Of a stretch of 64,000 nt of DNA, positions 28,338-38,937 are shown in pieces. Source of the DNA: Flavobacteriales bacterium (GTDB lineage Bacteria > Bacteroidota > Bacteroidia > Flavobacteriales_D > Crocinitomicaceae); contig JAKSBJ010000396.1 in assembly GCA_022361195.1 (NCBI GenBank), positions 1 to 64,000 of the forward strand. Direction: 5' to 3'. Numbering within the stretch: position 1 is the first letter of the stretch; every line of letters begins with the position of its first letter. The position numbers were made by a program, and so were the translations under genes. Under the pieces are notes generated by a model. It had not been told where the DNA came from. It worked only from the letters and a program-made list of their open reading frames with translations, and ran no database searches.

Positions 28338-28450
28338 GCCTCTTGATAAAATTTCTTTGTATTTTTACTTCGGATAATTTGTAAAACCAGAAAATAGTTA
28401 GTTACTTTGCACTCCAATTTTGGAACAGTAGTATTTTAACACTTTAAGAA

Positions 28451-28687
28451 ATGTCTAAAGTTTGTCAGTTAACAGGGAAGAAAGTAATGAGCGGAAATAA
28501 CGTTTCTCACGCATTGAATAGAACGCGTAGAAAATTCTATCCTAACCTCATTAAGAAGACTTTTTATATTCCCGAAGAAGATAGCTACATTACACTTAAA
28601 ATTAGTACTTCTGCTTTGAGAACAATCAATAAGAAAGGAATTTCTGCTTGTTTAAAAGAAGCTAGAGCTAAAGGATTTTTGAAGTAA
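28451..28687 (+). CDS. rpmB: 50S ribosomal protein L28
   Basis: A 78-aa ribosomal protein, recognised by VCQLTGKKVMSGNNVSHALNRTRRKF and the basic C-terminus ending in KGFLK. It is the first gene of the rpmB-rpmG-DUF4295-ftsY-rimO string, typical of Bacteroidota. The leader is at least 50 bases, which would allow regulation, but no clear structure was identified. Confidence 0.97.
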   Translation: MSKVCQLTGKKVMSGNNVSHALNRTRRKFYPNLIKKTFYIPEEDSYITLKISTSALRTINKKGISACLKEARAKGFLK

Positions 28688-28740
28688 ATAAAGAACCGGA
28701 CAGAGATTTTTTAATCTGACGTCTTTCATCTTATAGAACG

Positions 28741-28923
28741 ATGGCAAAAAAAGGAAATAGAATTCAAGTTATTTTGGAGTGCACAGAGCACAAAGATTCT
28801 GGTATGCCAGGAACTTCCAGATATGTAACAACTAAGAACAGAAAAAACACTCCTGACAGAATGGAATTGAAGAAATACAATCCAATCTTGAAGAAAATGA
28901 CTGTTCATAAAGAAATTAAATAA
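28741..28923 (+). CDS. rpmG: 50S ribosomal protein L33
   Basis: A 60-aa protein with the L33 pattern [16 protein letters not shown] and [21 protein letters not shown]. Only one Cys remains of the zinc ribbon, so it is the zinc-independent form. It is 53 bases after rpmB. Confidence 0.96.
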
Positions 28924-28931
28924 TTTAGACC

Positions 28932-29087
28932 ATGGCTAAGAAGACAGTTGCAAGTTTACAAACCGGTGGTGGAAAAGAACATACGAAGTGTATCAAAATG
29001 ATCAAGAACGAAAAATCTGGATCGTACACTTTCAAAGAAGAAATGGTTCACAATGACCACGTAAAAGATTGGTTCGCGAAGAATTAA
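28932..29087 (+). CDS. DUF4295 small protein linked to L33
   Basis: A 51-aa basic protein starting MAKKTVASLQTGGGKEHTKC and ending in KDWFAKN. It begins eight bases after rpmG. Its size, lysine content and position between rpmG and ftsY match DUF4295, a family I know only from Bacteroidota in this location. It is probably ribosome-associated, but the function is unproven. Confidence 0.88.
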   Translation: MAKKTVASLQTGGGKEHTKCIKMIKNEKSGSYTFKEEMVHNDHVKDWFAKN

Positions 29088-29159
29088 TCTTTTTGAATAT
29101 GAAAATATTTATTGAATAGCTTCTTCCCTATTAGGAAGGAGCTTTTTACATTTATTGAT

Positions 29160-37027: not shown

Positions 37028-37576
37028 ATGAAACATCAAGAATATCTGGATTTAGTTGAAGAGCTTTTAGCTGAAAACAAAACCACAGGGGATGACCACT
37101 CAGAATCCATGATTCATTACACAAAAATGAACTTCCAACGTATGAAACGTTGGCAAACTAAGGGGCAATTGGATGAAAAAACCATTGAAAAAATTAAAGG
37201 GATTAAAGCTCCTCAAAAATGGGTGGTTTTAACTGAAGGATGGTGTGGAGATGCTGCGCACTCAGTTCCTTTTATTGCAAAGATGGCAGAAGCTAATCCA
37301 AATATTTCGTTAGAAGTAAAGTTGCGGGATGAAAACCTGGATTTGATGGACCAATATTTAACAAACGGTGGTCGATCAATTCCAAAACTCATTGCTTTTG
37401 ACGAAACTGGAAATGAGCTGTTCAATTGGGGGCCTCGTCCTGCTCAAATGCAAGAATTTGTATTGGAATCAAAAGAGAACGAAGTTCCTTATTCTGAATA
37501 CAATGTTGGTCTGCAAAAAATCTACAATGCGGATAAAGGACAATCTATTCAAAAAGAGATAATAGAAAAGTTTTAA
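37028..37576 (+). CDS. Thioredoxin-fold protein with a single active-site Cys
   Basis: A 182-aa cytoplasmic protein. WVVLTEGWCGDAAHSVPFIAKMAE occupies the thioredoxin active-site position but reads WCGDA, so only the N-terminal Cys of CxxC is kept. ISLEVKLRDENLDLMDQYLTNGGRSIPKLIAFD supplies the strand and cis-proline region. A one-Cys site suggests a monothiol or glutathione-type reaction, or a chaperone, rather than classic disulfide exchange. Its stop overlaps the convergent gene stop. Confidence 0.85.
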   Translation: MKHQEYLDLVEELLAENKTTGDDHSESMIHYTKMNFQRMKRWQTKGQLDEKTIEKIKGIKAPQKWVVLTEGWCGDAAHSVPFIAKMAEANPNISLEVKLRDENLDLMDQYLTNGGRSIPKLIAFDETGNELFNWGPRPAQMQEFVLESKENEVPYSEYNVGLQKIYNADKGQSIQKEIIEKF

Positions 37577-37833
37577 TCCTCGATCGGTAATTCGGTTTCT
37601 TCTTCTTTCTCCTTTTTCTCGTCCTCAGCGGCGACTTGAGCAAGCAGAAGAGCCATCAATGCTACAAACAGGAGAATGAAAAACAATTTCCTATCCCGAT
37701 AAATAGGTTTCTTTGGTCGTTTGACTACGCGATCATACTCGTGTGTCAAACGACTAAAGTCTTTATAGGAAGCTATCGTTTCTTTTGATGGCAACCTGAC
37801 ATTCTCCGTTCTATTTATCTTATACTTTCTCAT
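37573..37833 (-). CDS. Small single-pass membrane protein coupled to the sigma factor frame
   Basis: An 86-aa protein with a basic cytoplasmic N-terminus, one transmembrane helix (about 53-70, LFFILLFVALMALLLAQVA) and an acidic Glu/Lys tail. The frame opens upstream at a GTG (37845), but the ATG at 37833 overlaps the sigma stop as ATGA and is preferred. Its position directly after a sigma factor would suit an anti-sigma factor, yet it lacks a zinc-binding anti-sigma motif. The role is unknown. Confidence 0.68.
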   Translation of the reverse strand: MRKYKINRTENVRLPSKETIASYKDFSRLTHEYDRVVKRPKKPIYRDRKLFFILLFVALMALLLAQVAAEDEKKEKEEETELPIED

Positions 37834-38393
37834 TTCGCTCCCCACTCTTTTTTGAGTTTATCCAGAATACGGTATAATCTCATTTTAGCGTTGGCTTCCG
37901 TAATATTATAAAATTCAGCTATCTCCTTAAAAGAATATTGCATAAAAAATCGCAGATCAATAATTTCTGCATATTCAGGTTTTATCACACTTAGCATTTC
38001 AATCAACCGCTCCTGATCTTCTTCCTTTTCAATTTTCCCTACCTCTATTTCCTGCATTAAATCCTTAACATGCTTTTCCTGAATTTCAACATAAAACATC
38101 TTTTTCTGCTTTCTGAAATACAGGTTTACCTCATTAGAAGCTATGCGGTATAACCAAGCTCCAAATGGAATTCCTCTATCCTCATATTTGTGGATATTAA
38201 ACATAGCCTTTAACATGGCATCCTGACAAATATCTCCTGCGGCAGATTCATCTCCCACTCGTTTAAAGATGAATAAATAAATCTGTTCAAATTACCGATC
38301 ATACAAAGCCGAAAAGGCATTTCTATCTTTCTTGGCTTTAGCTATTAACTGTTGGTCGGTAATGGTTATATGTCGGCTTTTATTTTCCTGCAA
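37830..38393 (-). pseudogene. ECF-type sigma-70 factor interrupted by an in-frame stop codon
   Basis: Region 2 begins upstream of the obvious open frame. From a TTG at 38393 the frame reads ...QQLIAKAKKDRNAFSALYDR, then TAA (38292-38294), then FEQIYLFIFKRVGDESAAGDICQD in the same frame. The stop falls where sigma factors usually carry Tyr (LYDRYF). After it, region 2 continues (AWLYRIASNEVNLYFRKQKK), followed by region 4 (IKPEYAEIIDLRFFMQYSFKEIAEFYNITEANAKMRLYRIL). A GTG at 38258 could restart translation and give a 142-aa protein lacking region 2.1. This may be a fresh pseudogene, a sequencing error, or a stop that is tolerated. Confidence 0.8.
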
Positions 38394-38442
38394 GCTTTTA
38401 ACTTATCTACTTATGAAATACAAAGTTTCTTCAATAGTAACA

Positions 38443-38937
38443 TTATTTTTTTGCTAATCGCTTTTGTAATTCATCCATCACCTCCTCAATAGATAAATAT
38501 GTATTGGCTCTAACCTTAGCAAAATTAGACTCTTCTAAGAATTCTACATGCGTTATTCCTTCTTCTGTTTGCGGAACTAATTTTCCCTCTCCACTATCGC
38601 TTAACCAATACCAATAAGTCTTCTTCAAAACTTTTTTCCCCTTATACTCATAAGTATGCCAGGTATCAATTAGATGTTTTATGATTTGAGGCGCCATCAC
38701 GCCACACTCTTCTTCAATTTCCCGAATGCCTCCCAACTCAGGCGATTCCCCTTTTTCTAACTTCCCTTTTGGAATATCCCACAAACCATTTCGCTTGATG
38801 AATAAAAAGGATTTTTTCCGCTGTACAATTCCGCCAGCAGCCTCAATAAACTGATGATCACTAAATTCTGTCAGCAGTTCTTTTTCCGTTTTAAATTCAA
38901 ACTTTTTAGGAAGGTTATCGATAAAAACTTTATACAT
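38443..38937 (-). CDS. Nudix hydrolase
   Basis: A 164-aa protein with a complete Nudix box (GKLEKGESPELGGIREIEEECGV, about residues 77-99; G-x5-E-x7-RE-x2-EE-x-G-x pattern satisfied), which hydrolyses a nucleoside diphosphate linked to another group. The N-terminal 40 residues precede the fold (AAGGIVQRKKSFLFIKRNGLWDIP). The substrate cannot be predicted. It is divergent from pyrE with only nine bases between the start codons. Confidence 0.92.
   Translation of the reverse strand: MYKVFIDNLPKKFEFKTEKELLTEFSDHQFIEAAGGIVQRKKSFLFIKRNGLWDIPKGKLEKGESPELGGIREIEEECGVMAPQIIKHLIDTWHTYEYKGKKVLKKTYWYWLSDSGEGKLVPQTEEGITHVEFLEESNFAKVRANTYLSIEEVMDELQKRLAKK

Follow-up and report, generated by a model that had tools for sequence, protein, structure and literature searches.

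The window analyzed here is a stretch of 64,000 nucleotides of a Flavobacteriales bacterium (contig JAKSBJ010000396.1). An ECF sigma factor frame lies on its minus strand, between a NUDIX hydrolase gene and a gene for a small membrane protein. The genes and features of this locus are as follows:

37573 to 37833, minus strand: gene for an 86-aa single-span membrane protein, overlapping the sigma stop codon (ATGA); a small membrane gene is conserved beside the orthologs
37830 to 38393, minus strand: ECF sigma frame from TTG start to TGA stop, with a TAA inside; matched by Pfam Sigma70_r2 and Sigma70_r4_2 and by the NCBIfam sigma70-ECF superfamily
38256 to 38258, minus strand: GTG, proposed restart codon; another codon in most orthologs, unconserved as a start
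38292 to 38294, minus strand: in-frame TAA of the sigma frame, within region 2.1, read directly; Tyr in most other distinct orthologs, a stop in none
38391 to 38393, minus strand: likely TTG start codon; in-frame TTG similarly placed in most sequences compared
38418 to 38422, minus strand: -10-like element TGTAT with a putative promoter role, at a fixed distance from the next element
38433 to 38442, minus strand: promoter-like element TGTTACTATT (TGTTACTTTT in relatives)
38443 to 38937, minus strand: NUDIX hydrolase gene, directly upstream (Pfam NUDIX, 1.6e-13)

Direct reading of the sequence showed that the sigma frame starts with TTG at 38393 and runs for 33 codons, the last of which is CGG, before it meets the TAA. 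The context of this stop is LYDR*FEQ. Past the TAA, the same frame remains open (FEQIYLFIFKRVGDE...) up to the TGA at 37830-37832, with regions 2 and 4 intact 3' of the stop. The interrupted frame described in the initial annotation, including its downstream part overlapped by the 86-aa membrane gene, was thus found at exactly these positions.

For domain searches, the TAA was read as X in the sigma product. The matches to Sigma70_r2 (1.1e-13) and Sigma70_r4_2 (6.5e-9) lie across and after the TAA, and the product scored 83.8 bits against the 42.9-bit cut-off of the sigma70-ECF superfamily (TIGR02937). As expected of an ECF sigma factor, the protein of ~190 aa contains only regions 2 and 4 of sigma-70. 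The full-length open frame of such a factor is present in the other orthologs, whereas in the window it is broken by the TAA after codon 33. Group 4 (ECF) sigma-70 factors such as Bacillus SigW, SigY, and the BldN-type proteins (TIGR02952) resemble the window protein in regions 2 and 4, in their size of ~188 aa, and in the adjoining gene for a small membrane protein; the match to the SigW structure 5wuq in the PDB had an E-value of 1.6e-14. The window protein nevertheless falls below the cut-offs of the named ECF equivalog families shown, including that of BldN, where it reached 108.7 bits against the curated 206.45. It also differs from the SigW/SigY/BldN-type factors in the conserved TTG start of its family and in a partner with no known anti-sigma domain.

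The codon at the stop position was compared with 41 other distinct orthologs of at least 45% identity, from genomes that all lie outside the genus of the window genome. A Tyr codon (TAT or TAC) is present in 39 of them, AAT (Asn) in one, and CAC (His) in one, so the stop indeed replaces the usual Tyr, as had been proposed. The frame aligns to orthologs on both sides of the stop, with identities of up to 72%; the best orthologs are ~70%–72% identical across the sigma frame. Because the frame aligns to orthologs both before and after the stop, and because the stop position is occupied by Tyr in nearly all of them, a chance frame is unlikely.

A match at an E-value of 1e-30 or better was obtained in 213 of 240 genomes of the bacterial family, many of these matches being to a paralogous factor. 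Among the matches listed, only the window copy has a genuine internal stop. Three further genomes (G034, G014, and G109) had been marked as containing one TAA and were rejected as broken copies, as their alignments appear to cross the normal gene end. In G034 (ortholog L011), the TAA is the ordinary end of the gene; the alignment of G014 ends in the same way, and that of G109, judged from the alignment and not from its sequence, appears to do so too.

Among 11 near orthologs, 72 alignment columns are invariant. The window sequence deviates from them at two, namely at the stop and at one Leu-to-Ile replacement, and other single orthologs deviate at 0 to 7. Apart from the stop, the predicted sigma protein is therefore as constrained as its relatives. 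The fourfold sites differ from those of near relatives at 61%–83%, i.e., they are near saturation. Since so few invariant columns have changed despite this divergence, the stop is either very young or a base error; an error would leave the same pattern of constraint. With ~0.6 neutral substitutions per site, a real stop would be estimated to have arisen within about the last 5% of the branch. The TAA, its absence from the relatives, and the intact, constrained remainder of the frame were all observed directly.

The window genome is a 5.4-Mb draft in 404 contigs, and the stop site lies well inside a contig of 122 kb. No internal stops were found in more than 100 other domains of this genome, which comprised 36 other sigma region 2 domains, ABC transporter domains, and 71 response regulators. 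The genome therefore seems poor in stops, false or true. Even so, one error within 5.4 Mb is easy to have. Elsewhere in the window, the gap at 28338-29111 was considered as a second broken gene and rejected, as it contains intact genes for ribosomal L28 and L33 and a DUF4295 protein. These genes, which fall below the minimum length used for the ORF list, precede an ftsY-like gene that encodes SRP54 GTPase and N domains.

The stop codon of the NUDIX gene abuts the promoter-like element. In 22 orthologs carrying this element, GTTACTTT is invariant, and a short A/T element follows it at constant spacing; the two look like a -35 and -10 pair. The pair at 38418-38442 is thus probably an ECF-type promoter, as judged from its conservation. 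One base of the window element departs from all 22 relatives; two other orthologs also carry one odd base there. In the -10-like region, all 22 orthologs have T at column 23 and either A or C at column 21, in contrast to the T of the window at the latter column. When this pattern was used to search five genomes for a regulon, the hits did not exceed those of a reversed control, which may mean that there are few targets or that the pattern is incomplete.

The start codon was examined in 36 sequences that carry the promoter-like element, the window included (orthologs L003-L017 and L111-L140). An in-frame TTG lies 31-75 bases from the element in 33 of them, and in 30 it is the only usual start. 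This indicates that the TTG start is a trait of the family, and the TTG at 38393 is likely the start of the window gene. Such a start perhaps keeps the sigma factor scarce.

The membrane gene occurs as a single copy in the window genome. In relatives, a single-span membrane protein of 66-120 aa is likewise encoded next to the sigma gene, often overlapping its stop codon. ECF sigma factors usually, though not universally, share their operon with a cognate anti-sigma factor. The 86-aa protein matched no Pfam or NCBIfam family, and hence no anti-sigma domain known to these databases. Larger membrane proteins are encoded beside paralogous ECF factors of the same bacterial family (L026 and L028-L031). 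They share with the small partner a short N-terminal tail before the membrane span, whereas the large outer domain is absent from the small partner. The resemblance between the tails is weak (48 profile columns, hhalign E-value of 7e-4, probability of 26%), and on this basis the small membrane protein is probably a sigma-binding partner. Together, the sigma factor and this protein appear to form an uncharacterized conserved pair.

We favor, at somewhat better than even confidence, the view that a conserved ECF sigma gene has recently acquired a nonsense mutation. Translation from the TTG would end after codon 33 without reaching the helices that contact RNA polymerase and DNA, so that no functional sigma factor would result. 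The overlapping membrane gene would probably be translated less, as its coupling to the sigma gene would be lost. That the product is lost, that the partner is affected, and that the base itself is real are inferences. The locus shows an in-frame stop in a gene that is intact in relatives, as a nonsense pseudogene would. It thereby resembles bacterial regulator genes inactivated by one nonsense mutation, in which the remaining frame is also intact. The odd base in the promoter-like element would fit early decay, a weak sign given the two other orthologs with a single odd base at this element. Loss would nevertheless be unusual, because the rest of the gene, its start codon, and its membrane partner are intact, as is the gene in the other family members listed. 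The main competitor, which we regard as a serious though distinctly less probable explanation, is a base error in an intact gene, which could have entered the 404-contig draft during sequencing or assembly or through mixed strains. A single base separates the TAA from the Tyr codons found in the relatives, and no other clear lesion is seen in this otherwise constrained gene, whose family is intact elsewhere; all of this would suit an error. The lack of stops in the other domains sampled argues that such errors are infrequent in this genome; the position of the site deep within its contig and the separate odd base in the promoter-like element also count against this explanation. Both a very recent loss and a single-base error had been put forward in the initial annotation, and both still stand.

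Explanations in which the stop is real and the protein is still made fared worse. It is improbable that low-level UAA readthrough or a downstream restart yields enough sigma factor, although the frame 3' of the stop is still constrained and the conserved TTG start suggests a family that works at low expression. The stop is absent from all relatives, and no suppressor tRNA with a stop-reading anticodon is among the tRNAs found in the genome, a set that is incomplete, as expected of a draft. The RNA around the stop folds no better than shuffled sequences (z of 0.14 and -1.0), i.e., nothing unusual suggests a stimulatory structure, and the UAA is followed by U, which makes a strong stop in Escherichia coli. 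Restart at the GTG at 38258, as the initial annotation had suggested, is unlikely: GTG occupies this position in only 7 of the 42 orthologs, and the short product would match Sigma70_r2 only from position 18 of 71, lacking the first 17 profile positions. We give still less weight to a tolerated stop, with a sigma factor that is needed only in traces, as the TTG start already hints, and is supplied by rare readthrough or restart in a gene that still works. Programmed recoding, or an altered genetic code with TAA read as Tyr, has in its favor that the stop falls exactly on a conserved residue. It is highly improbable, as the other domains sampled in the genome contain no in-frame TAA, no matching tRNA was found, and the stop is conserved in 0 of 41 orthologs. 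The interrupted frame is a genuine feature of the sequence, and its cause is most likely ordinary, either a nonsense allele of young age or an erroneous base, rather than a novel mode of decoding.

Provided that the base is real, a sigma factor kept intact by the relatives has been knocked out naturally in the window genome, and a comparison of close strains could reveal the roles of this factor and of the small membrane protein beside it. The conserved pair and the TTG start merit follow-up more than the stop itself. With its conserved TTG start, shared promoter-like element, and tiny membrane partner, this ECF sigma family appears uncharacterized, as our literature searches, which were limited in extent, returned nothing directly on it.
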